Positions 1,587-20,157 of a DNA stretch of 35,646 nt are shown here, in pieces. Each line of letters opens with the position of its first letter. Within the stretch, counting starts at the first letter, position 1. The DNA comes from Candidatus Ozemibacteraceae bacterium. GTDB lineage: Bacteria > Muiribacteriota > Ozemobacteria > Ozemobacterales > Ozemobacteraceae. Below the pieces are notes generated by a model that did no database searches, was not told the DNA's origin, and saw only the letters and a list, made by a program, of their open reading frames with translations. Position numbers and translations under genes: made by a program. Where the stretch lies: positions 1-35,646 of the forward strand of contig CALLCO010000086.1 in assembly GCA_937998695.1 (NCBI GenBank). Reading direction: 5' to 3'.

Positions 1587-1742
1587 TGGAATCGCCGTTT
1601 TCTGAACCCTTCCCTAGTGGTCGCCCAAACTAAAAGTCAAGTGATTTTCCCATGACCCTTTCGCCCATTCAGAGGTTTCTGGAGATCTACGGAGGTGACA
1701 TCAGGATCCAATCGGACTATATTGGGAAGTAAGGAGGGGATT

Positions 1743-2300
1743 ATGCGTCAGCGCCATGGGACCGTCATGCTCGCCCTGTTGGTTGTTGTGCTTATCGGAG
1801 GTATTCTGGCCATCCGGCTGGTTCCGTCCTACGAGATCCAGGAACGACGACAGTCCGACCAGGAACTGAAGTTCTCGCTGGCCCAGATCCGGCAAGCGGT
1901 GGATATGAAGGGTTTTCTCGACCCCACGTGGCCAGAATCGACCGGATTGAATCTTGGGGTCGCCTCCGAGGTAAAAGACCTCATGATTGGCCTCACCAAA
2001 GAAAAGCTTTTGGGAGATATCCCCAGAGACACCACTATTGTCAGCTACCAATGGGGTCAGAACATGACCGCCAGCCCAACCGAAGGGCACTTCTGGGTCT
2101 TCTGCTCGAACATCGCTTCCAATACCAACTTCGAGGACGATGCCGAAGACGGCTCCCTCGCCTCCTGGACCCTCGGCCCCGACACCTATCTGGCCACAGA
2201 ACAGGTCGCCTTCCCCGACGCCCTCGACGATTACAAGGGCCAGAACAAGTTCGGCCGCCTGTTCTCGAACTCCAATACCGCGATCAAGATCGTTAAATAG
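1743..2300 (+). CDS. Type IV pilin-like / pseudopilin-like single-span protein
   Basis: A 185-residue protein with a short basic leader (MRQRHG) followed directly by a 20-residue hydrophobic helix (TVMLALLVVVLIGGILA) and then a soluble domain. This is the layout of a prepilin-processed pilin or type II secretion pseudopilin: Gly6 would be the cleavage site. Position +5 after the Gly is Ala instead of the usual Glu, as in GspK-type tip pseudopilins. The soluble part continues the helix (to about residue 55) and contains WGQNMTASPTEGHFWVFCS and a C-terminal Asn/Lys-rich end; no known domain was recognised. The start is set by a strong Shine-Dalgarno (AAGGAGGGG) just before ATG 1743; an upstream in-frame ATG at 1695 lacks one. 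No pilus or secretion genes lie nearby. Confidence 0.6.
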   Translation: MRQRHGTVMLALLVVVLIGGILAIRLVPSYEIQERRQSDQELKFSLAQIRQAVDMKGFLDPTWPESTGLNLGVASEVKDLMIGLTKEKLLGDIPRDTTIVSYQWGQNMTASPTEGHFWVFCSNIASNTNFEDDAEDGSLASWTLGPDTYLATEQVAFPDALDDYKGQNKFGRLFSNSNTAIKIVK

Positions 2301-2453: not shown

Positions 2454-5414
2454 ATGACCCTTCCCCGCGCGCCTCATTCCTCCCTTGCTCAGGGGCCGGC
2501 CCGCCCCTATGGGAATCTCCTTAGGGCCTTGGTTTTCCTGCTGCCGGTGGGGGCTTGGCTGGCGCTCATCGCCTTGGTGATGGACGCGAACCGGCGGTTC
2601 GTCGCCTTGCGGCTCGAAGACCACCGCCACGCCTGGGAACAAGACGCCCGCACGATTGCCGCCTTCCTGCAACGGGCCCACACCCTCGAAGCACAGGTCG
2701 AGGACCGGGGCCGGCAGATGATCCGGCGCATGGAGAGGACTCTGCGACAGGATCGGGCTCGGCGGCCCGATGCCGCCCTGGTGGGCACGAGCATCCGGGA
2801 GGCATTTCCGGAGATTTCGCCCGGGGCGGGCTTGCGAGTATGGGGGTTCGCGGGCGATCCCCGAGCCGGCGAGGTCGAGACGCTGGTCGGGCCGGGGTTG
2901 GAGGCACGCACGCGGGCGGTCGCTGCAGCGGTATTTCGGGGGCTGGCCATCCTGGCAGGCGGGGGCACTCTGCGGCCTGAGGCCCACCATCGGCTGCGCA
3001 AGCAGACCGCCGCCCTGTTCGGGCCCCTGGCCAAACCCGAGCTCCTGGCCGATGTGCGGGAGAAGCGCCTGACCGAGGTTCTCGTCGAGGGCCGGTTCGC
3101 CTACCTCTGGTGGAGCCGGATCCGCCAGCGGGGGCGGGTGGTGGGCGGCATGGTGGTGGTCTTCCCCGCCAACCTGGCGCAACGGATCCGGCCGCGCCAG
3201 GCGGCGTTGGAACAGGCCTGGCGCCGCAGCCGGGGCCGCGTGCTGCCTCTGTTGCTGCCGTTGGCCGCGGCGCGGGGCCGCCCGGTCCTGCTCCCCACCT
3301 CCTGCCGCCGCGCTCAAGGGGCCCGGGAGCAAGCCCGACGCGCCCTGCACCTGACGCGCAGCGGGCTGCTTCTTCAAAATCGTCTGCTGGAACAGGGTGA
3401 CACCTGGTGGCTGTCGGCGTTCCTGTCGATGGACACCCCTCACCACACCGTGCTGGTGGGAGCGGTACCCCGACTGTCCGGTCCGTTGGCGGGATGGCCC
3501 CGGGGTCTCGCTCTCCTGGGCCTCGGAGTGGTGGCCTGGACCCTCCTGCAGGGCAGCCAGACCGGCCGGGCCGAAAGTCTGAGAACGTCTTTCCTGAGCA
3601 TGTTCCTGGCCCTCGCCCTGCTGCCCCTGGCCGCCGTTGGACTCTATGGTGCCTTTCAGATCGAAGCGGGAGAGGCCCAACAGATTCGCCGGATCCGGCA
3701 GGAAGCCGTGGAAGAGGCGCAGCGCATCGATTTCAGCGGAGACACCATCCTCCAGGAATTGTCAATGATCACCTACCGCCTGGGGGAGGACCCCCGAATT
3801 CGCGAGGCTCTGCTTTCGTCTTCCCGACCGCGGCGGGAGTCGGCCCTGCGACGGCTGGATGCGGTCTGTGGAGCCAAGGGGGTGGGAGTCGACGATCTCA
3901 TGTTGATGGCCCCAGGCCGATCCCCGGTCTTGTTGTATGGGAGAGGGCAGACAAGAAAAACCTCCCGGCGGACCCAGGAGTTCCTGTCGGTCATTTGCTA
4001 TCGGTTCCATCAGATCATTCACGAGCTTTTCCATCCCGCTCCCGCCGCTCTGGGGGTCACCCCCGCGGTGAAAAAAGCCCTGGATGTTCTGCGCCTGTTG
4101 GATACCCCCGTGGTGGTCAAGATGTTCTATGCCGCCCATGAAGTTGGAGAGATCAGCCGCACCGGGCAGGACGACCCGATCTTCACCATGGTCCAGACCT
4201 TGGCTGACGGAGGAACCCTGCAAGCCTATCTCCTGCTGACAACCCGGGCCGCCGCCCTTTTCCAACGGCATCTGGAGCAAGCGGTTCGACGGACCAATAT
4301 CGACCGGCAGGGGTTCCTGGGGTATGGGCTATCCGACCCGCGCCGAGGATTTTCGGTGCCGAACCGAGACCATGGCCCCTTCTGGGGAAGTGCGGAAGGC
4401 CATCGGCTGGCCGCCCTCATGGTCCGGGCGGCGGAGCTGGGGGCGCCTCTCTCCACCGAACGGGACGGCACCCTCCACTTTGCCCTGCCATTGCAACGCT
4501 TGTCCCCCTTCGTCATGGGGGGGGTCCGGCCTTTGCAGCATGTCCGGATGGCGGCCTTCTGGCAGCGGACCGGCCTGGCCGGGTTCCTGATCGTGGTGGG
4601 GCTGGTTCTGGTGGCCCTGGCCCAGGGAGCGGGGGAGTTCCTGCTGACCCCCCTGACCGAAGCGGCCCAGGCGCTGACCGCCGTGGCCCGCGGCGATCTG
4701 GAACAACGCATGCCCAGCACCCGTGATGACGAACTGGGAGAAATGACCCGGGCGTTCGACCAGATGATCGCCGGCCTGCGCGAGCGTCGCGACCTGGGCC
4801 GGTTCATTTCCGGATCCCTGGAACACTCGATCAGTCAGGGCAACCTGGCCGAAGGGCCGCCGCGGGCAGTGCCGGCCGCGGTCCTGATCTCCGACATCCG
4901 CAGTTTCACCACCATCTCGGAGAGCCACCCCCCGGCCGAGGTGGTGGCGATGCTGAATGCCCATCTCGACGCCATGGCCAGGAAGATCCGCCAGCGCGGC
5001 GGCAAGATCGACCGGTTCGTGGGAGATGCCATCATCGCTCTCTTCACGGCCCCCACCCCGGCCGAGGCGGTGCATCAGGCCATCGAAGCCGCGCGCGACA
5101 TGATGGCGGGCCATGCCGCCCTGCAGGAGGAACGCCGCCGCGGCGGGCGGTTCCCCTACGCGATCGGCATTGGGATCGATTTCGGTCAGATCATGGAAGG
5201 CACGCTTTCCGCTGGAGAGCGGCTTGAATACGCCCTGTTCGGGCCGCCCCGGGTCGAAGCGGAGCGCCTGGAGGCAGCCTCGAAGTCGGGCCGTCACACC
5301 AGGATCATGGTCTCGGAGGCGGTCAGAAACCTGGCGACGGGCACCGACCCGTTCATGGAGCATCGGCAACATCGGGCCTGGGAGATCATCTCCCTGCAGA
5401 GGGCGTCATCGTGA
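2454..5414 (+). CDS. Receptor class III nucleotide cyclase, C1-like subunit (metal half only)
   Basis: A 986-residue membrane protein. TM1 lies near residues 22-44, an outside domain at about 45-348, TM2 and TM3 at about 350-367 and 380-402, a second outside domain at about 403-705, TM4 at about 707-724, HAMP at about 730-782, and the class III cyclase domain at about 805-975. Both metal-binding Asp are present, D814 in SDIRSFT and D858 in VGDAI, 44 residues apart as in the family. The partner-facing residues are lost: the usual Lys before GD is R854, the purine-contacting Thr/Asp is A927, and the transition-state Asn is V934 (YALFGPPRVEAERL against the usual YTxxGDxVNxAxRL); R938 remains. 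A homodimer would therefore probably be inactive or very weak. The gene overlaps the next cyclase gene by four bases (GTGA). The inference is that it supplies the metals of a heterodimer. Signals sensed are unknown. Confidence 0.85.
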   Translation: MTLPRAPHSSLAQGPARPYGNLLRALVFLLPVGAWLALIALVMDANRRFVALRLEDHRHAWEQDARTIAAFLQRAHTLEAQVEDRGRQMIRRMERTLRQDRARRPDAALVGTSIREAFPEISPGAGLRVWGFAGDPRAGEVETLVGPGLEARTRAVAAAVFRGLAILAGGGTLRPEAHHRLRKQTAALFGPLAKPELLADVREKRLTEVLVEGRFAYLWWSRIRQRGRVVGGMVVVFPANLAQRIRPRQAALEQAWRRSRGRVLPLLLPLAAARGRPVLLPTSCRRAQGAREQARRALHLTRSGLLLQNRLLEQGDTWWLSAFLSMDTPHHTVLVGAVPRLSGPLAGWPRGLALLGLGVVAWTLLQGSQTGRAESLRTSFLSMFLALALLPLAAVGLYGAFQIEAGEAQQIRRIRQEAVEEAQRIDFSGDTILQELSMITYRLGEDPRIREALLSSSRPRRESALRRLDAVCGAKGVGVDDLMLMAPGRSPVLLYGRGQTRKTSRRTQEFLSVICYRFHQIIHELFHPAPAALGVTPAVKKALDVLRLLDTPVVVKMFYAAHEVGEISRTGQDDPIFTMVQTLADGGTLQAYLLLTTRAAALFQRHLEQAVRRTNIDRQGFLGYGLSDPRRGFSVPNRDHGPFWGSAEGHRLAALMVRAAELGAPLSTERDGTLHFALPLQRLSPFVMGGVRPLQHVRMAAFWQRTGLAGFLIVVGLVLVALAQGAGEFLLTPLTEAAQALTAVARGDLEQRMPSTRDDELGEMTRAFDQMIAGLRERRDLGRFISGSLEHSISQGNLAEGPPRAVPAAVLISDIRSFTTISESHPPAEVVAMLNAHLDAMARKIRQRGGKIDRFVGDAIIALFTAPTPAEAVHQAIEAARDMMAGHAALQEERRRGGRFPYAIGIGIDFGQIMEGTLSAGERLEYALFGPPRVEAERLEAASKSGRHTRIMVSEAVRNLATGTDPFMEHRQHRAWEIISLQRASS

Positions 5415-8302
5415 AACGAGGGTTGTGGTCGATCCTGCTGACGGGCATCCTGGTATTCCCGTTCGCGGTGGTGCAGATGGCGCGGGATACCCAGCATCGC
5501 CTGTCCCAGGATCGGTACCTGCAGGAAACCAGAAAGGTCCAGGGGTGGGAACTCGATCGGCTGGCCGCGCCGCTCCATCCGGCGAATGCCGTCACCCGGC
5601 TGGGCAAGCAGTTCCTGGACGGCTTGCCGGCGGCGTTCCACCTCCCGCCCGACCAGGTGGCATCGTATCTGGCCGCCTTGCATCACCGGGTGTTTCCCGC
5701 CGATTTTCCTCTCGAGCTGATGGTCTACAAGCGGCGCACCGACTTCCAGCCCTTGTTGCACGCGGGGTCCCGGCTGGGCCTGGCTTCCTTCTCGGCCAAA
5801 CTGATAAGGCGGGCGGACCTCCTGATGCATCAGCCGGGCAAGCACAACCTGAACCAGCGAGAGGTCATGGCTTCCCTGACCCGGGTTTTTCCCCAACCCG
5901 TTTTCGCGAAATCCTTGAAGCCGGACGAGCCCGTCCGCTTTCTGAGTCGCTCGCCGAATGGGCTGTCCATGCTGCTGATCGGGCATAGTCCCGTATCGGA
6001 GGGCACCCAGGACCACGAATTCCTGGTCCTGCTTCTGGCGCGGTTGTCAGGCCTTTCCCCCCGCTTCTGGCCCAGATTCCATCTTCATACCTGGACCACG
6101 CCGAACGTCGGACTGTTCTTCCAGGACCGCCGGGGGGGAAAGGGCCTGGGCTCGCGCTGGTTCCAGCACCGCCCAGCGGTGCGGGCCCTGCTCGACTCGC
6201 ATCCGCGCCTGGCCGGGGAAAAATTCCAGATCGGCATGTTCGGCCCCTGGTTGATCCAAAGCCTGCCCGCCCCTGGCCGGTCACGATTCCGCCCCTTCCT
6301 GGTCCGGCGGCTTCCCGAAGCGCTGTTTCCCCGCGGGAGAGGCGGCTCCCCCCTGTGGTTCTTCCTGAGCACCAGCGGAGTGGGCTTGGGAATCCTGTTC
6401 ATCCTGCAGAGGATCTGGATGGGCCGTGGTCTTCGCCTGCGCGTCGCCTTGGGCACGGTGGCCATTTTCCTGGCCGGGGCGACCATTCCCCTGACCGGAA
6501 CGATTTTTCTTGCCCAGCACCTCTTGTCCACCACCTACGAGACCGCCTTGCATACCCTGGAACGGCGGCTCCACCAGCATCTGGAGAACCTCGACGCCGG
6601 GGTGTTGCCTTTCCAGGGCCAGTTCATCACCCAACTCCGCAATTTCCGCTTCACCGACGCCCAAGGGAGGGATCTCCCGGTTCCGACCTCGCCATCGGAA
6701 TGGCTAGGTTTTCTCCCCCCGCTGTTGAAGAGGGCCGGCATCCCGGGAAAAGCCCTAGAAGCCATCCTGGTCAGCAGTCGGAGTGGGAACCAGATCAACA
6801 TCTACCAGGACCACATCAGCGGGACCCTCCAGCTGGTCCCCCGCCCAGATCCTCTGCATAAGCGGATTGTAGAATCAATGCGGCAGCACTGGGCGCTCAT
6901 TGCCCCCGAACGCCGCAGGGCCGGAAAACTGGAATCTCCCATGAATCTGCAGGAATGGTCCATGGATTTGGTCGACGAGACCATCACCTACCTTCTTGGC
7001 CCGGAAACTCTCATCAACGTTATGGGGTTCTCTTCCCGCCGAACGTCCTTCAGTAACTTCTTCGAGTCTTTTTCCCTGCTCCGCACGCTGGTCCGCCGGC
7101 AGGGGCGGCCCACCCATCTCATCACCTGGAGCTGGTCGAGCCGCTACCTCGAATCGCCCTATATCCGGCAGGCCATCGGACAATTCGGCAAAACCCGTCC
7201 GGAGTTTCCGACCAGCGTCTCGCTCGGCCGGGAATTTGAAACCGTCCGCAGCGCGGAAATACATGCCGCCAGATCGAACTTCCGTGCGCTGGAAACTCTG
7301 CGTCTGGAAGCCGAGCGAAGTCGTCGGGCCTTCCGACAACAGGATCTCTCGGCCACAGATGCTCCCCTCCTGGAAGCGTTGCCGGGACGGCACATGAAGG
7401 CCATTCTCGCCGCCCAAGCCAGCACGGCCGATCTCGCCCAGCAGCAGGCTCGCATGTCCCGACACCTGGTGGCCCTCGGCCTCGGGATCCTGGCGTTCGT
7501 TCTGTTGGCGGGGTTCGCGGCCGGCATCTTCTTCCTCGAGCCCTTGGGACGGGTGTTGGCCGCCATCGATCAGATCAACCGCCAAGAGTATGCGGTGGCG
7601 CTCGACGCCGATCGCGCCGACGAATTCGGCCAGTTGGGCGCCGCCTTCAATGCCATGGCGACCGGGTTGCGGGAAGGCACCATCATCAGGCGGTTCGTTT
7701 CCGATGCGGTCCGCCAACTCGTCAGCCAGGAAGGGAAAGTTCGAGAAGCCTGTCTCACGGAGGCCACCGTCTTATTCTCCAGTTTTCTAGGGTTTGACGG
7801 GTTCCAGACCCGCCATCCCCCGGACGAGGTGTTTTCCCTGTTGCAGCACCATCTGAGCGCAGCGGCGGAGGCCACGGCCGAGCATGGGGGCGACATCGAC
7901 AAGATGGTGGGCGACAAAGTGATGATCGTCTTCCGACACGCCGGATGGTCGCAGCCCTGGTCCCCCGCCGAGGCTGCGGTGCGGGTGGCCCGGTCCCTAC
8001 GCGCGAAAGTGGCGGCGGCGGGCTGCCCCCTCAGCCTGGCCATCGGCATCAATTCCGGGCCGGTGGTGGCGGGGGCCATGGGGGCCGCGGAAGTGCGGCT
8101 CGACCTGACCGTGATCGGCGACCCGATCAACCTGGCGGCCCGCCTGGCCACGCTGGCGCATACCGTTTCCGGCAGCCGGATCGTGCTGTCCGGGCAGACG
8201 CGAGACCGCCTGCCGCCAGGCTTCCCCTGCACCCGGCTGCCATTCAAGGCCGTGCGAGGCAAGACCCAGGCCATCGAAGCCTGGCTGTTGGGCGAATCCT
8301 AG
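5411..8302 (+). CDS. Receptor class III nucleotide cyclase, C2-like subunit (purine and transition-state half)
   Basis: A 963-residue protein with the same layout as its upstream neighbour: TM1 near residues 4-22, outside domain, TM2 and TM3 near 314-331 and 345-367, second outside domain, TM4 near 684-706, HAMP near 708-760, and cyclase domain near 783-962. The first metal Asp is replaced by S791 (FSSFLGF against FSDIxGF), the same Asp-to-Ser change as in C2 domains of mammalian adenylate cyclases; the second is kept as D835. K831, T900, N907 and R911, which bind the purine and stabilise the transition state, are all present (LTVIGDPINLAARL). The Lys/Thr pair points to ATP rather than GTP. 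The GTG start overlaps the upstream stop, so equal co-translation is likely. It probably arose by duplication of the neighbour. A catalytic role only with the partner is inferred, not shown. Confidence 0.85.
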   Translation: MKRGLWSILLTGILVFPFAVVQMARDTQHRLSQDRYLQETRKVQGWELDRLAAPLHPANAVTRLGKQFLDGLPAAFHLPPDQVASYLAALHHRVFPADFPLELMVYKRRTDFQPLLHAGSRLGLASFSAKLIRRADLLMHQPGKHNLNQREVMASLTRVFPQPVFAKSLKPDEPVRFLSRSPNGLSMLLIGHSPVSEGTQDHEFLVLLLARLSGLSPRFWPRFHLHTWTTPNVGLFFQDRRGGKGLGSRWFQHRPAVRALLDSHPRLAGEKFQIGMFGPWLIQSLPAPGRSRFRPFLVRRLPEALFPRGRGGSPLWFFLSTSGVGLGILFILQRIWMGRGLRLRVALGTVAIFLAGATIPLTGTIFLAQHLLSTTYETALHTLERRLHQHLENLDAGVLPFQGQFITQLRNFRFTDAQGRDLPVPTSPSEWLGFLPPLLKRAGIPGKALEAILVSSRSGNQINIYQDHISGTLQLVPRPDPLHKRIVESMRQHWALIAPERRRAGKLESPMNLQEWSMDLVDETITYLLGPETLINVMGFSSRRTSFSNFFESFSLLRTLVRRQGRPTHLITWSWSSRYLESPYIRQAIGQFGKTRPEFPTSVSLGREFETVRSAEIHAARSNFRALETLRLEAERSRRAFRQQDLSATDAPLLEALPGRHMKAILAAQASTADLAQQQARMSRHLVALGLGILAFVLLAGFAAGIFFLEPLGRVLAAIDQINRQEYAVALDADRADEFGQLGAAFNAMATGLREGTIIRRFVSDAVRQLVSQEGKVREACLTEATVLFSSFLGFDGFQTRHPPDEVFSLLQHHLSAAAEATAEHGGDIDKMVGDKVMIVFRHAGWSQPWSPAEAAVRVARSLRAKVAAAGCPLSLAIGINSGPVVAGAMGAAEVRLDLTVIGDPINLAARLATLAHTVSGSRIVLSGQTRDRLPPGFPCTRLPFKAVRGKTQAIEAWLLGES

Positions 8303-8773: not shown

Positions 8774-10729
8774 TTAGAAGGTGACCTTCTGATCGATCAC
8801 CGGGACGAGGTCGGTGCCGGTGACGGTCACGTAGCCCTCGGTCGCCTCCTTGGGCAAGCTGAGGGTGGCTTCACCGTTCTGGTCGGTGAGCCGGACGTCG
8901 ACATTCTTGACACCCTCGGTGTAGGTCACGACGCGAGCGTCGGGCATGGACTTGCCTTCGGCGTCACGCACGACGACCTTGACGGTGGACTTGTCGTCGG
9001 CCTTGGTGCCGGTCGCTTCAACCTTGATAGCGACCGGAGGAGCGAAGCGGACGTTGAGGGTGCTATCGCCGAAGAGATGCCACTGCTCGAGCATCATGAC
9101 GCCGGACTTGGTGGGCTCGGCGGTATAGAGTTCGAGGCCTTTCATGATGCCATTGGCGAAGATGCCGCCGGTGGTCTTGTAAACCTTGTTGGCGATGTAG
9201 TTCTGGTTGAACTCGACCTGGACCCAGATCGGCGGAACCCATTCCATGTTGGTGGTGGAACCGGCATAGCTGACGGCGCCCGCAGGCTTCTCGATGGAGC
9301 CGGCACGCATCCAGGTTTCGCCGAATCCGGTGAAGTTGACGAACTTGCCGTTGACGCAGGCGACGTCCCAGATGATGGGCATCTTCCAGCCGTTCTTGAG
9401 GTTGGCCTTGATGTCGTTGTTGTTGTAGGCGGTGGTGCCCCAGCTGGTGCCGGACCCGTGGCCGAGGTAGTTGATCAGGCTGCGGCCGGCGTTGACGCCG
9501 TCGGTGATCATGGCCTTGGTGGCGGTGGGATCATAGACCTTGTCGATGTTCTTGAACATCGCGGCCATGAGCCCGGTGCGGTTCTTGTCCATGTATTCCC
9601 AGTCTTTGGGGCTGCCTTCGTTGGAGGCGATGCCCATGCCATCGGTATACCAGGCGGTGTCGTTGGTGATGGGGTAGGCTTCGTAGTTGATGAACTTGGC
9701 GACCTGGTAGGCCACTTCCTCGGGGGTGTTGGCCGAAAGGCGGCTGATGATCGCATCGGGAACGTGGTCGTTGCCGGCCAGCTTGGTGTAGCAGGGGTCG
9801 GAATCGGCGCGTTCTTTGACGCCCTTGAGGGTCGGGATCTGCTCGGCATCGCCGACCAGCATGATGTTGGTCAGCTTGGCGCGGTCGAATTCCTTCTGGA
9901 TGAAGGCCTTGACCTCGTCGGCGGTCCTGCCGACTTCGCTCATCTTGGCGAGGGTGACCTCGATGCCGCACTTCTGCTTCCAGGTGATGAAGGGCTGGAT
10001 GGCATCGACGAACCCGTCGTGGCAGATGATCAGCAGGCGGCCGAATTCTTCCAGGCGGGGGAGGCGGCCGGCGGTCTGCTTGAAGTTGATGAAGGCCCGG
10101 GCGTACAGGGGCTCGAAGGTGCGGGAGATGCCCTTGAAGGACAACGGATTGGTGGAGGTGGTGGTGCCGCTGATGGCCACGCTCAGGTTGCGGTAGACGC
10201 GCAGCTGGTTCTTGACCGGGTTGTACTGGACCGGTGTGATGGTCAGGTTGACGCCACGGACATCGCGGAAGATGAAGGGCGAACCCATCTGCACGAGGTC
10301 GTTGTCAGCGGGATACCATTTGTCTTGGGCGTAGACATCGCCGAACACGTAGGGAACGTTGGCCGGGTCGATGTCACGGGTGAAGTTCCCGCGGCTGGGA
10401 ATGACGGTGGCAGGAAGGTCGATGACCTGGGCCTGACCCTTGACGACCTTGAAGATCGGGTCACGGCGCGGATCGACCATGACCAGAGCGGTCAGGCGGG
10501 GCAGTTCGGGGGCATTCTTGTCGTAGGACGGGCTGGTGTTGGGAACGTTGATCGAGACGACGGGGCGGCCCGCCACCTCGGTCTTGGCGAAGGCGACATC
10601 CTCCACCTTGATCTGGAGAGTCGTGTCAAAACCCTTGGTGGCTTTGACCGTGATCCCCGTGGCCGCCCACGAACCGGCGGCACAACACAAAACCGCGAGC
10701 ACCGTACAAAGGAAAGTCCAACGCCTCAC
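8774..10729 (-). CDS. Secreted gingipain-type cysteine protease (peptidase family C25)
   Basis: A 651-residue exported protease. Residues 1-22 form a signal peptide (cleavage near SWA/AT). Residues about 25-220 look like the gingipain propeptide, and about 225-560 like the catalytic domain. His and Cys of the dyad are seen as H424 in NYLGHGSGTSWG and C458 in WDVACVNGKF, 34 apart, close to the spacing in gingipains. The last about 85 residues form an Ig-like domain (VKVVVRDAEGKSMPDARV, DQNGEATLSLP) as in the family. No extra sorting domain of the Bacteroidetes type IX kind is visible after it. The start is GTG: AGGAGG sits six bases upstream, while the nearby ATG at 10734 opens only ATG-AAG-TGA. 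The gene stands alone with its own promoter and terminator. Substrate is unknown. Confidence 0.88.
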   Translation of the reverse strand: MRRWTFLCTVLAVLCCAAGSWAATGITVKATKGFDTTLQIKVEDVAFAKTEVAGRPVVSINVPNTSPSYDKNAPELPRLTALVMVDPRRDPIFKVVKGQAQVIDLPATVIPSRGNFTRDIDPANVPYVFGDVYAQDKWYPADNDLVQMGSPFIFRDVRGVNLTITPVQYNPVKNQLRVYRNLSVAISGTTTSTNPLSFKGISRTFEPLYARAFINFKQTAGRLPRLEEFGRLLIICHDGFVDAIQPFITWKQKCGIEVTLAKMSEVGRTADEVKAFIQKEFDRAKLTNIMLVGDAEQIPTLKGVKERADSDPCYTKLAGNDHVPDAIISRLSANTPEEVAYQVAKFINYEAYPITNDTAWYTDGMGIASNEGSPKDWEYMDKNRTGLMAAMFKNIDKVYDPTATKAMITDGVNAGRSLINYLGHGSGTSWGTTAYNNNDIKANLKNGWKMPIIWDVACVNGKFVNFTGFGETWMRAGSIEKPAGAVSYAGSTTNMEWVPPIWVQVEFNQNYIANKVYKTTGGIFANGIMKGLELYTAEPTKSGVMMLEQWHLFGDSTLNVRFAPPVAIKVEATGTKADDKSTVKVVVRDAEGKSMPDARVVTYTEGVKNVDVRLTDQNGEATLSLPKEATEGYVTVTGTDLVPVIDQKVTF

Positions 10730-14319: not shown

Positions 14320-17139
14320 TCACTTGTGGGTCAGATGGTAACTGCCGTCCCAGTTCTCGGGCGGCGGAGTTTCTTTGTACTCGTTGCAGCGTTTGAGATA
14401 GGTCTTCGACGGACCGTCGTCGGGATAGCGCATCAGGATTTCCTCTAAGAGGGCGATGGCGTCGTCCCATTGGCGGTCAAGGTGCAACTGGATGGCCTCC
14501 TCGTATTTCTGGCCGATCTCGATGAACCAGGGGGGCTCATGACCGATCTCGCACACGATCTCGTGCACCTTGACCGGCTCCTTCTTCCCCTTGACCGCCA
14601 GGAAATCGAGGAACCGGCACTGAATGCGGTGTTTAGCCTTCTGATAGGTGGTATCGCTGCACATGTACAAGGTGCCGTATTCCTTGTTGGCGCCTTCCAG
14701 GCGTGACGCCAGATTGACCCCGTCGCCCAGACAGGTGAAGTTCATCTGGGTCTTCGACCCGATGCACCCGACGACGACATGGGCGGTATTGATGCCGGCC
14801 CGGGCGTAGGCCCGTGGCAGACCACGCCGGGCCCAGTCGGCTTGCAGCTCCTTCAGCTTCTCGTGCATCTCGAGGGTGTAGAGCAGGGCCCGCACCGTGT
14901 GGTCATCCTGCTTTTTGGGGAAGTTCCAGTAGGCCATGACCGCGTCGCCGATGTATTTGTCGAGGGTTCCACCGTGCTTGAACAGCAGTTCGGTCATGGT
15001 GCCGAGATACTCGTTCATCATCACGACCAGGCCCTCGGGCGACAGACTTTCGGAAATGGTGGTGAACCCGGCCAGGTCGGAGAAGAAGATGGTCAACTCG
15101 ACCTTTTGCCCACCCGGCTTCACTTCGTCCGGGTTGCTGGTCAGATAGTCGACGACGTCGGGAGACACGAACCGCCCGAACATCTCCTTGGTGCCGCGGG
15201 CCTTCTCTCGCTGTTGGATATAGTGGGATAGATTGGTTAGACCCCAGGTGAGTGGGAAAGCCACCATGAACGGGCTGAGGTTGAAATACTGCCCCCCCTT
15301 GAAGGAGAGGATGGCCCCCCAAGTCATCGCCCCCAGCATGCCAACGGTCACGAACGCCCCCAGGACCGGGGTGATGAGATCGAGGAGGATGCCCAGCCCC
15401 AGGGTCCCGATCACCAGAAGCAAAAGGATCAGCTGCTGGTTGGGATACCGGATGAAGGATCGGCTCAGGATGGTATGCACCGCGTTGGCATGGATTTCCA
15501 CCCCCATCATCATCGGGTCCTGTTTCCACCACGGGGAGCGCATGGTGAAGGGGGTCGGGAAGTAGTCGAAATCGCTCAGTTCGAACGGCCCGACCATGCA
15601 GATCTTGTTGCCATAGTTCTGCCCGTAGGCGGCGGTCTTGAAGTGGGCCTTCTCCGGGGAAAGGGCTTCCCGGCTGCTGGGCATGCGCTCGACCGTGCTG
15701 GCCAGGGTCGCCTCGTCGAAACACTCGAAGAAATCGGCACCCGGAAGGAAGGGGGCTCGCGGCGGGGTCCGGGTGTTGCCGAAGAAATTGACATTCATCA
15801 GGCCCCGTTCGTTGGTCGGGATGTGGATATCCCGCATCGTGAATCCGCCCTTGTATGCTCCGGCCTTTTTCAGGGGGTTGATCCGTCGGAGTTCCTCATA
15901 CAAGGCGGCTTCATAGGAATCCGATCCGGTTAGATTGTAGGTCCGGTCGAGGGCGATGGCTGCGGTAATCACGCTCATGGCCGGAGCGAGGGTTCCATCT
16001 GGGAGGGTGAGGAACACGGGGAGTTGGGAAACGAATCCTTTGTTTCCGACCGCCACGTTGATGAACCCCAGCCGGACAGGCCCGGACAGGAACTTGTCGG
16101 CCGGGTAGTTCGGCCGCAACTCCACCACCTGGGAAGCCACCATGCGGACTCCCGAACCCTCCCGCAGCCCCTGGTCGATCTGGAAGCTCACCTCTTCCTG
16201 GCGGATGGCAGCCCCCAGAATGACGGGGGCACTCGAGGTCCGGATGGCTTCCACCAGCAGCGCATCATCCAAAGGGTTCTTCTCTCCGTCCAGGACGAAG
16301 TCGAAGGCAATCACCCTGGCTGGAGGAATGGTGTAGGTGGTTCGGGCTTTCCTGATCCCGGTCAGGGAAATCTGCAGCAAAACGGGGGCGCCCTTGGGAA
16401 ACACCCGGACGTCGAGGTCGAGACTGGCCATGGTGAGGTCCAGCAGGAAATCCTGCCACCCCACCCCATACCGGCGCCCGGCCTCGGGATCGTCAGCGAG
16501 CCGCCCATCGGCATGAGCCCGCCATGCCCGCCCGGTATCCAGCCCGGAGGGGCCGTCCATCGCCTGCCAGAATCCCCCGACCCGTGGCATGATCAGGTCT
16601 TCTTTGAACTGGAAGGGGAAGAATTGAGGCGCCCCTTCCTCTTTGGACTTTTCCCGCTTGGCCCCGCCCGTACGAAGATGCCAATCCCATTCCTGGAAGG
16701 TGGAACCGACCGGGCCCCGGGCGGAGTATTCCACCCACCCTAGGCGAAAATCCAGGAAGGTAATCCGCCGCTCGCTGCCCTTGGAAGGGAAATTTTTGGT
16801 CTGGCTCCGGCCCAAAAAACGAAAGATCGACGCGAACTCGCCACGCTCCGGGTTCCGTCCGATCAACCGTGACGTCCGTTCGTCCTTTTTCACCATCAGC
16901 AGGTCAGGAGAAGGACGGCGGCCTTCCGAGGTGAGAAAGCAATACTGCATGATCAGGGCATTGAAATAGTCGTCGATATCGACGAAAACCTGGAAAGCGT
17001 AGAGAAGCACCACCACCGTGGCCACGATGGCGGCGAAAAACAGCCCGTCACGACTCCGGGCGCCGGTCTTCCCCTTCCCTGTCGACAGCCCAGGAAAAAT
17101 CGCGGACTTGATACGGGCGGTCAACCGGGACAGGCCCAT
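14320..17139 (-). CDS. CHASE2-type adenylate cyclase with complete active site
   Basis: A 939-residue receptor cyclase. TM1 is near residues 33-52, followed by a long outside region (about 55-560) of CHASE2 type (KKDERTSRLIGRNPERGEFASIFRFL, ITFLDFRLG). Three clustered TMs lie at about 568-635, then the cyclase domain at about 680-850. All six key residues are present: D688 and D732 (metals), K728 and T802 (adenine), N809 and R813 (transition state), so a homodimer can be active and the Lys/Thr pair suggests ATP. The C-terminal about 65 residues look like a TPR-type helical pair (YEEAIQLHLDRQWDDAIALLEEIL). The gene lies 22 bases after the GH57 stop, probably in one transcript with it. The ligand is unknown. 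Confidence 0.9.
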   Translation of the reverse strand: MGLSRLTARIKSAIFPGLSTGKGKTGARSRDGLFFAAIVATVVVLLYAFQVFVDIDDYFNALIMQYCFLTSEGRRPSPDLLMVKKDERTSRLIGRNPERGEFASIFRFLGRSQTKNFPSKGSERRITFLDFRLGWVEYSARGPVGSTFQEWDWHLRTGGAKREKSKEEGAPQFFPFQFKEDLIMPRVGGFWQAMDGPSGLDTGRAWRAHADGRLADDPEAGRRYGVGWQDFLLDLTMASLDLDVRVFPKGAPVLLQISLTGIRKARTTYTIPPARVIAFDFVLDGEKNPLDDALLVEAIRTSSAPVILGAAIRQEEVSFQIDQGLREGSGVRMVASQVVELRPNYPADKFLSGPVRLGFINVAVGNKGFVSQLPVFLTLPDGTLAPAMSVITAAIALDRTYNLTGSDSYEAALYEELRRINPLKKAGAYKGGFTMRDIHIPTNERGLMNVNFFGNTRTPPRAPFLPGADFFECFDEATLASTVERMPSSREALSPEKAHFKTAAYGQNYGNKICMVGPFELSDFDYFPTPFTMRSPWWKQDPMMMGVEIHANAVHTILSRSFIRYPNQQLILLLLVIGTLGLGILLDLITPVLGAFVTVGMLGAMTWGAILSFKGGQYFNLSPFMVAFPLTWGLTNLSHYIQQREKARGTKEMFGRFVSPDVVDYLTSNPDEVKPGGQKVELTIFFSDLAGFTTISESLSPEGLVVMMNEYLGTMTELLFKHGGTLDKYIGDAVMAYWNFPKKQDDHTVRALLYTLEMHEKLKELQADWARRGLPRAYARAGINTAHVVVGCIGSKTQMNFTCLGDGVNLASRLEGANKEYGTLYMCSDTTYQKAKHRIQCRFLDFLAVKGKKEPVKVHEIVCEIGHEPPWFIEIGQKYEEAIQLHLDRQWDDAIALLEEILMRYPDDGPSKTYLKRCNEYKETPPPENWDGSYHLTHK

Positions 17140-18935: not shown

Positions 18936-20084
18936 TCAGCGGGTGCTCTTCTGAACGACGTGGGTGATCGTCCGCTCCATGTCGCCGTCGTTGTTGACCG
19001 CGTGGACGGGAATGTGCTGGTCGCCGTCGGGCAGGGCGAAGCGCAGCGAGAAGGTGCCATCGGGGCGCAGTTTCACGTTCTTGCCCTGGACGGTCAATCG
19101 AGCATCGGGCTCGGTGGCTCCGTAGACGATCAACTCGGTGTTGACCACCAGCCAGAAGTCCTTCCCGGCCGACGGGGCGGCCTTGCGCACCGGCGAGCTG
19201 AGGGAACTGACCGCCCCCGAGCTGAGCTCATGCAGCAGGCGCTGCGACATGGCCTGCCGGATCTCACCCGAACTGGCCCCGACGTTGAACCCGCCCGAGG
19301 CGCGATAGATCTCGCGGAACGCCTCGTCGACCACCATCCACTGCTCGTCGACGACGTCGGAATACGTGTCGCGGGGCGTTCGCACCACGTTGCTGCGCGC
19401 GATCAGGATGAACTGCCCATGCGGCGAGATGAGCCCCAGATCGAGCAGGAAGGCCCGGTCCGGGCGGCCCAGATGGATATACCAGTTGTTGGCGCCCTCG
19501 AAAACGTGGATGTCGGAGAAACTATGGGCATTGTCGCCGGTGAACTCGATATCGGTGACGTCGTAGACGCGCAGAATGAACGAACTGCGGGCGTAGCCCT
19601 CGTCGCCGAGGGTGTGGCGCAGCTCGGCCTTGGTCTGCTCGTTGATCTCCCAGTAGGCGTGGGCCCACTGCGGGTCACGCACCTGCAGGACGATCCGGGT
19701 GTCACCGTAGCCGAGCGGCAGTTCGCCGGTCAGGCGGTCGACCTCGCCCGACGAATGCTCGGGGGCTTTGATCGGTTGGAACGGCCGGCCGGCCGCTTCC
19801 ATCACCTCGCCGGTGGGCAGAGGGGCCTGGCGGGGCCCGGTCTGCGCGGCGGGTTCTTCTCGGGGCCCCTTCTTCTGGGGCTTTCCCCGGGTTAGAGGAG
19901 CCAGGGTGGAAGTCGGGGCCGTGGCCACGGGGGATTGCCCTGTGCGCTGGGCGGCCTCGATCTGGGCGATGAGTTCGGCCTTGGTCACCTTGGACCGGAC
20001 CTTGATCTGCAAACCCTTGGCAAGCTCGGCCAACTCGGATTTGGTCAGCTTCCGGAGTTCTTTTCCCGTTCCGACGGTAGCCAT
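18936..20084 (-). CDS. DUF4912 protein with N-terminal Rho-N/SAP-like domain
   Basis: A 382-residue cytoplasmic protein. Residues about 8-45 (LRKLTKSELAELAKGLQIKV, then VTKAELIAQI) form a Rho N-terminal/SAP-like helical motif, followed by a Pro/Thr-rich linker. The DUF4912 domain occupies about residues 125-290 (LQVRDPQWAHAYWEIN, LRVYDVTDI, WYIHLGRP). A second beta-rich part at about 315-375 (YGATEPDARLTVQGK, LRPDGTFSLRFALPDG) looks Ig- or carbohydrate-module-like. Its biochemical role is not established; its place before a GH57 branching enzyme hints at glucan metabolism. The start at 20084 is supported by GAGGAGG six bases upstream; the frame extends 13 codons further without such a site. 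Confidence 0.8.
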   Translation of the reverse strand: MATVGTGKELRKLTKSELAELAKGLQIKVRSKVTKAELIAQIEAAQRTGQSPVATAPTSTLAPLTRGKPQKKGPREEPAAQTGPRQAPLPTGEVMEAAGRPFQPIKAPEHSSGEVDRLTGELPLGYGDTRIVLQVRDPQWAHAYWEINEQTKAELRHTLGDEGYARSSFILRVYDVTDIEFTGDNAHSFSDIHVFEGANNWYIHLGRPDRAFLLDLGLISPHGQFILIARSNVVRTPRDTYSDVVDEQWMVVDEAFREIYRASGGFNVGASSGEIRQAMSQRLLHELSSGAVSSLSSPVRKAAPSAGKDFWLVVNTELIVYGATEPDARLTVQGKNVKLRPDGTFSLRFALPDGDQHIPVHAVNNDGDMERTITHVVQKSTR

Positions 20085-20157
20085 TCGGGCCTCCTCAACA
20101 CAAAATGCTCTGGATCGCAGCAAGAACCATACCAGGGTCCTCGAGGGAAACTGCTTT

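Follow-up and report, generated by a model that had tools for sequence, protein, structure and literature searches.

Two overlapping receptor cyclase genes of a Candidatus Ozemibacteraceae bacterium as predicted C1 and C2 halves of one adenylyl cyclase

Introduction

Class III nucleotide cyclases have their active sites at the dimer interface, and the locus described here raises a simple question: do two overlapping receptor genes, neither of which encodes a complete set of catalytic residues, specify the two halves of one enzyme? The genes, here called A and B, lie in a stretch of 35,646 nucleotides (contig CALLCO010000086.1 of assembly GCA_937998695.1; the window) from a Candidatus Ozemibacteraceae bacterium. 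In the bacterial homodimeric cyclases CyaB and CyaC each chain carries the full residue set and the dimer has two equal sites. In the mammalian transmembrane adenylyl cyclases (tmAC) C1 carries the metal-binding Asp residues, C2 carries the purine and transition-state residues, and there is one live site. An earlier reading of the window, the original prediction, had proposed that A and B form a bacterial heterodimer of this C1/C2 type. We find that their residues are complementary and that the split recurs among relatives, both as separate genes and as natural fusions. From the sequences, we put at roughly 0.85 the probability that A and B form a HAMP-coupled receptor adenylyl cyclase of class IIIb, an obligate heterodimer of C1/C2 type in which one site is live and the other a pseudo-site.

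Results

A and B together hold one complete residue set

Both chains carry HAMP and Guanylate_cyc domains over the Pfam cut-off (for Guanylate_cyc 47.6 bits in A and 56.6 bits in B, against a cut-off of 21.9); Pfam found only these two domains, and no H-NOX heme domain, in either chain. We read the catalytic residues as a seven-column code, D1-K-D2-T-D-N-R, for metal Asp 1, purine Lys, metal Asp 2, purine Thr, the Asp of the GD motif, and the transition-state Asn and Arg. A reads DRDAPVR, without K, T and N and with Pro replacing the usual Asp of GD, and B reads SKDTDNR, without D1 but with the second metal Asp, D835, retained. The residues named in the original prediction (D814, R854, D858, A927 and V934 in A; S791, K831, T900, N907 and R911 in B) are all present at the positions it gave (Table 1), the four-base gene overlap that it described is confirmed, and its alignment columns agree with those of solved class III cyclases, to which the motifs align gap-free (phmmer; A to 2w01 and 5x4t, B to 5x4t). 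Neither A nor B has the full D, K, D, T, N and R of a homodimer chain; only the A+B combination yields a complete set for one dimer. Lys and Thr at the purine positions are the class IIIb adenylyl pattern, and B has both.

Three simpler accounts of this pattern were considered. Chance or misalignment is rejected, the columns being gap-free against solved structures and the split recurring in 96 units (below). Decay of one gene is also rejected: against the copies in Candidatus Ozemobacter sibiricus the ratio of nonsynonymous to synonymous substitution rates (dN/dS) is about 0.24 for A and 0.23 for B, values indicating that both genes are under purifying selection. That A and B are mere tandem duplicates is unlikely, since they align only over the transmembrane (TM)-HAMP-cyclase part, at 31% identity, and relatives keep the split.

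The split is a trait of the family

Relatives were surveyed with a hidden Markov model built from 26 cyclase domains of the host genome and applied to the window and 80 regions of its family, then to further regions; these were picked from the best listed matches to A and to the C2 profile and are no census. A domain was called C1 when D1 and D2 were both Asp and N and R were not both kept, and C2 when N and R were kept and the metal positions were not both Asp, a gap at D1 counting as non-Asp; other domains were called full or cut. The window and the 80 regions hold 84 C1, 78 C2, 6 full and 1 cut domain, and no domain among them lacks both halves. With 20 regions added for the adjacency count, 14 of them from other families of the phylum, there are 122 adjacencies of cyclase domains on the same strand: C1 precedes C2 in 86 (50 split, 36 fused), C2 precedes C1 in 27, a full domain takes part in 5 and a cut domain in 4. 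The pairing is C1 with C2 in 113 of the 122, some of the C2-first cases being neighbours from different units within arrays, and like stands next to like (C1+C1 or C2+C2) in none of the 118 uncut adjacencies. Random variation among homologues, which would have spoken against the original prediction, is not what these adjacencies show, and the prediction is supported.

Once the f5 pairs, any pair containing a cut domain, neighbours from different units and near-copies had been set aside, 96 non-redundant units remained (47 split, 37 fused, and 12 of family f3, family f6 or reversed order). All 96 C2 domains keep Lys, Asn and Arg, 95 keep Thr (one has Ser) and 88 the GD Asp; their D1 position is Asp in 4, a gap in 8 and another residue in 84. 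All 96 C1 domains keep D1 and D2, with Lys in 40, Thr in 22, GD Asp in 18, Asn in 4 and Arg in 14. Thus the positions lost in C1 vary freely and the same positions are fixed in C2. Since D1, D2, N and R define the classes, the independent evidence comes from K, T and the GD Asp and from a cleaner test by position, in which the fusions are scored by place in the chain alone. Among the 37 natural fusions, the N-terminal domain has both metal Asp in 37, Asn and Arg in 1 and Lys plus Thr in none, and the C-terminal domain has both Asp in none, Asn and Arg in 37 and Lys plus Thr in 36. The split recurs in 95 units besides the window's own; the third cyclase of the window meanwhile keeps the full set. 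Judged from these sequences, the split is a family trait and not an oddity of one pair.

The overlap of the two genes is also common: in the 47 split units with C1 first, an in-frame start stands at the -4 overlap in 37, at -1 in 2 and elsewhere in 8. Across the 96 units the distance matrices of C1 and C2 correlate at r 0.787 (permutation maximum 0.096 in 2000); for split units alone the value is 0.777 and for fused units alone 0.849. Contact between the domains is no better an explanation than common descent of whole units, and what the correlation shows is that the pairs travel together. A 117-row tree from all columns has mirrored subgroups on the C1 and C2 sides. When the trait columns are left out, C2 forms a single clade and C1 requires two changes, in a tree made by a quick method and with long branches. 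As a separate observation, G015:C314 12500-50400 (L295 and L296) carries fused C1-C2 cyclase genes in a head-to-tail array, at least six of them, each encoding about 1970-2170 aa.

Cyclases elsewhere usually keep the full set

Control loci came from a named collection, in which 80 matches were listed; the query was C1-derived, hence the sample is biased. Fourteen of the 80 were set apart as Riflebacteria-type, on grounds that included their labels and, for L154 from an unlabelled metagenome-assembled genome, the presence of the split itself; they hold 15 C1, 16 C2 and 3 full domains. The other 66 loci, of which L149 shares its metagenome-assembled genome with the Riflebacteria-type L143, hold 73 domains: 69 full, 2 with Arg to His only, 1 with neither half and 1 cut. 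No complementary pair was found in these 66. Of the 30 best C2-profile loci in 41 genomes from other phyla, 29 are full and one has Arg to Tyr, and in 15 genomes of other families of the same phylum 30 of 30 C2-profile loci (L221-L250) are full, among the matches listed; some of these 15 genomes also hold split pairs (L281, L282, L285-L294).

The split appears to have arisen more than once

Two further families of the phylum have pairs of their own: f6, a dCache pair reading KKDTDNR then DKDSESR, and f5, a HAMP pair reading DKDTENR then DKGTDNR. Outside the phylum, adjacent pairs were sought only among the listed rows of the 41 genomes; three were noticed, of which two are split, both CHASE2 pairs (SKETDNR and DKDTEIE in genome G055, SKHTDNR and DKDTETE in genome G067). 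The G067 pair is conserved in both other genomes examined of its order. The order of G055 has 13 genomes. The split pair is present in five of them, from two families; in four more, all of another family, the best-matching place holds one single-copy gene, an orthologue reading DKDTDNR; and the other four, of a fourth family, have a weaker match only, of which one was read and is full.

In a careful tree made without the trait columns, the pair of the G055 order forms a clade (96/87) beside the single full-site genes of that order, and the G067-type (100/99), f6 (100/100) and f5 (100/100) pairs each group by themselves; in this small tree neither the main C1 nor the main C2 group is a clean clade, each needing three changes. 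Because the pair types group separately, the tree indicates at least five occasions of duplication followed by complementary loss, the main family and the partial f5 case included. The third out-of-phylum pair (L332, genome G062) is unsplit: VTDTKDH, which has lost most catalytic residues, stands beside a full-type DEDTSNR. This tandem is possibly a receptor pseudo-cyclase pair.

A model of a natural fusion supports the domain order of tmAC

We modelled a segment of 1146 aa from a natural fusion, with 39 natural fusions aligned (predicted local distance difference test score, pLDDT, 79; predicted TM-score, pTM, 0.57). The seven best PDB matches (Foldseek) are to AC5, AC9 and AC8 over 1165-1222 alignment columns, which take in both cyclase domains and the intervening membrane part, at a query-normalised TM-score (TMq) of 0.30-0.36 and a root mean square deviation (rmsd) of 25-33 A over the whole chain. 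The listed bacterial entries, with one cyclase domain per chain, reach 0.14-0.19, and the model of A alone reaches 0.16 against AC5. Human soluble adenylyl cyclase (sAC), a single chain that has both domains, reaches TMq 0.16 and a target-normalised score (TMt) of 0.37-0.39 with up to 52 A rmsd, which is about one domain's worth. CyaB (3r5g) and CyaC (1wc1) are among the best single-domain structural matches.

What the fusion model supports is that the domains follow one another as in tmAC, not that they are packed together; single-chain prediction with a membrane part between the domains may miss a C1/C2 contact. A reading of the TM-scores in which both domains of the model superpose jointly on AC9 is rejected, since the sAC matches speak against it.

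Each chain is predicted to have two outer regions

Hydropathy places segments at 25-43, 379-397 and 708-726 of A, with a weak one at 155-173, and at 5-23, 314-332, 341-359 and 691-709 of B. In the AlphaFold2 model of A (pLDDT 86.7, pTM 0.70), residues 348-368 form a helix, and a short one, at 154-168, lies inside the first outer region. A layout of one TM helix, an outer region, two TM helices, a second outer region, a TM helix, HAMP and cyclase fits these predictions for each chain. With four TM helices and two outer regions per chain, the proposal of up to four outside domains for the pair fits as well. Each of four fused proteins has nine or ten segments by hydropathy, and eight of these lie where two such cassettes would put them.

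Against Pfam, 48 full-length C1 members gave HAMP, cyclase and two stray single matches, and outer region 2 gave no match. Profiles of the A-type outer regions (20 of the 48 members each) had no significant match in the PDB, the best, at E 0.25 and 0.027, being short and implausible. The modelled secondary structure of the outer regions, a long helix followed by strand-rich halves, suggests Cache-like folds.

Host genome and neighbourhood

The host genome (4.5 Mb, 324 contigs) is of Candidatus Riflebacteria type, and its nearest relative among the genomes compared is Candidatus Ozemobacter sibiricus, of the same genus, in which contig QOQW01000019 of BY5 carries the matching A locus. The host genome has 35 cyclase matches, about 15 of them full. 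Seven complete C1/C2 units were read in it (C86, C118, C13, C53, which is fused, C112, C237 and C297). On C112 (L063) the cyclases stand in the row full, C2, C1, with C2 before C1, and this reversed order recurs in the pairs L065 and L066. In one further domain, L018 (G000:C232:42659-43087, RKETDSR), both halves are damaged.

Around A and B the neighbourhood from a radical-SAM/TRAM gene through an exonuclease/HRDC gene is conserved in a same-genus relative (G001). Directly upstream of A, a gene at 1695-2300 (+) has a weak GspG-like pseudopilin match, far below the cut-off, and its relative sits at the same place in G001. At 8774-10729 (-) lies a C25-type (gingipain-like) peptidase, 94% identical to the Candidatus Ozemobacter sibiricus copy. 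Its synonymous divergence (dS) is 0.35, whereas A, B and two further flanking genes that were compared have values of 1.0-1.5; the low value would fit a recent transfer, a recombination event or strong constraint on codons. A DUF4912 protein at 18936-20123 (-) has Rho_N-like and glucodextranase-B-like parts.

Table 1. Features of the A/B locus and the third cyclase in window coordinates
Feature	Position	Strand	Remark
Gene A, C1-type receptor cyclase half, 986 aa	2454..5414	+	
Outer (presumed extracytoplasmic) region 1 of A, residues 46-345	2589..3488	+	without Pfam family or significant PDB sequence match
Outer (presumed extracytoplasmic) region 2 of A, residues 402-703	3657..4562	+	without Pfam family or significant PDB sequence match
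HAMP domain of A, residues 730-777	4641..4784	+	Pfam PF00672
C1 cyclase domain of A, residues 808-962	4875..5339	+	Pfam PF00211
A D814, metal Asp 1	4893..4895	+	
A R854, at purine-Lys position	5013..5015	+	
A D858, metal Asp 2	5025..5027	+	
A A927, at purine-Thr position	5232..5234	+	
A V934, at transition-state Asn position	5253..5255	+	
A/B stop/start overlap, 4 bases	5411..5414	+	GTGA
Gene B, C2-type receptor cyclase half, 963 aa	5411..8302	+	GTG start
HAMP domain of B, residues 709-755	7535..7675	+	Pfam PF00672
C2 cyclase domain of B, residues 783-959	7757..8287	+	Pfam PF00211
B S791, at metal Asp 1 position	7781..7783	+	
B K831, purine Lys	7901..7903	+	
B T900, purine Thr	8108..8110	+	class IIIb type
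B N907, transition-state Asn	8129..8131	+	
B R911, transition-state Arg	8141..8143	+	
Third cyclase, CHASE2	14320..17139	-	full set DKDTDNR; internal control outside the A/B system

Discussion

How would such a pair work? We propose that a single membrane receptor adenylyl cyclase is made up of A as its C1 half and B as its C2 half. On assembly of an A-B heterodimer, A would give the two metal Asp and B the Lys and Thr for adenine selection and the Asn and Arg for the transition state, leaving the dimer with one live site and one pseudo-site. A ligand on either chain would act through a hetero-HAMP bundle on the single site and change cAMP output, and pairing would be enforced by the overlapping genes or, in relatives, by gene fusion. 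The Lys and Thr of C2 indicate ATP as substrate and cAMP as product, and a cAMP read-out is plausible because the host genome has 13 matches to cyclic nucleotide (cNMP)-binding domains, 12 of them above the cut-off. The heterodimer itself, its activity, cAMP, HAMP coupling and signal integration are what we infer from these patterns.

Several observations weigh against this proposal. The loss is incomplete: A retains Arg938, D2 is still Asp in 48 of the 96 C2 domains (Glu in 35, other in 13), both metal positions are acidic in 6 of the 96, one fused N-terminal domain is full (L117), and the f5 pair is only partly split, its first copy being full by the class rule. The fusion model matches AC5, AC8 and AC9 with an rmsd of 25-33 A over the whole chain, matches sAC by about one domain, and shows no packed C1/C2 dimer. 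Finally, the product is assigned by a general rule of purine specificity.

Some of these points would suit A and B as independent homodimers of weak or altered, non-canonical activity, adjacent through tandem duplication: D835 is kept in B and R938 in A, some C2 domains have both metal positions acidic, the fusion model shows no packed pair, and bacterial class III cyclases are described as homodimerizing in the available text of PMC9552081. Independent enzymes would hardly account, however, for complementarity in 113 of 113 uncut pairs without a full domain, for a residue loss that is position-specific in fusions, for positions that are free in C1 and fixed in C2, or for the full set being usual elsewhere (29 of the 30 best C2-profile loci from other phyla), and we regard this reading as quite unlikely. 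Could one or both chains instead be dead pseudo-cyclases that serve only to bind nucleotide or to control the cell's other, full cyclases? The genome offers about 15 full cyclases as possible partners, and the degenerate RKETDSR domain exists; but a dead regulator needs no residues that exactly complete the site of its neighbour, and fusion and mirrored distances indicate the neighbour as the partner, which makes this reading very unlikely. It is also unlikely, in our estimate, that the heterodimer is real but makes cGMP or serves mainly as a low-turnover sensor. Just two residues give the specificity here, and the good structural matches of the fusion model include the guanylyl cyclase Cya2 (2w01); against this, the C2 domains have Lys in 96 of 96 and Thr in 95 of 96, the class IIIb adenylyl pattern.

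The C1/C2 heterodimer that we favour has eukaryotic precedents in principle, by analogy, in tmAC, soluble guanylyl cyclase and the NeoR/RGC pairs. The A/B type resembles tmAC (AC1-AC9), where one live site accompanies a degenerate one according to the available text of PMC12264004, in its complementary C1 metals and C2 remainder, in fused relatives that hold two membrane cassettes in one chain, C1 then C2, and in the seven best matches of the fusion model. It differs from tmAC in being bacterial, class IIIb-like and HAMP-coupled, in having cassettes of about four TM helices with large outer regions instead of six-TM bundles, and in consisting here of two chains, which are one chain in the 37 fused units of relatives. 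Two separate chains are also found in soluble guanylyl cyclase, whose alpha chain supplies D486 and D530 and whose homodimers are unable to rebuild the site, as far as the available text of PMC3591389 goes; that enzyme, unlike A/B, is eukaryotic, has a heme sensor and makes cGMP. The heterodimeric rhodopsin guanylyl cyclases of chytrids, NeoR/RGC, likewise pair two membrane receptor chains: in the available text of PMC12264004, NeoR supplies the metal Asp and lacks NxxxR, its partner supplies base selection, and one site is live and the other regulatory. They are fungal, with rhodopsin sensors and cGMP as product. With the bacterial homodimers CyaB, CyaC and Rv1625c, A and B share the catalytic fold but not the full residue set, which Rv1625c has in each chain, with two equal sites (PMC9552081, available text). 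The A/B type seems to work like C1/C2 enzymes, yet it is not a tmAC.

Fused dimeric class III cyclases are described as unknown in bacteria in the available text of a review (Schultz 2022). Among the papers listed in the literature searches, which did not extend to subscription papers, none was found that reports a heterodimeric or fused class III cyclase from bacteria, and none that deals with cyclases of Riflebacteria. The word heterodimer is indexed for an Actinobacteria survey (PMC2447327), whose available text gave no passage with it.

What does the split mean for these bacteria? It is fairly probable that at least five lineages, one of them partly, reinvented the animal-type split cyclase by tandem duplication of a receptor cyclase gene and loss of opposite halves of the site, and that the Riflebacteria then fused the pair and multiplied it into several to many receptors per genome, in which the hetero-HAMP and the pseudo-site would allow one active site to read four outer regions. 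One family supplies 37 fused and 47 split units; together with a partial case and relatives elsewhere that are unsplit, these provide material for a direct test. They also form a natural series for the possible passage from a symmetric, homodimeric enzyme to an obligate asymmetric one, and a set of candidate receptors whose single catalytic site would be under the control of two different sensor chains.

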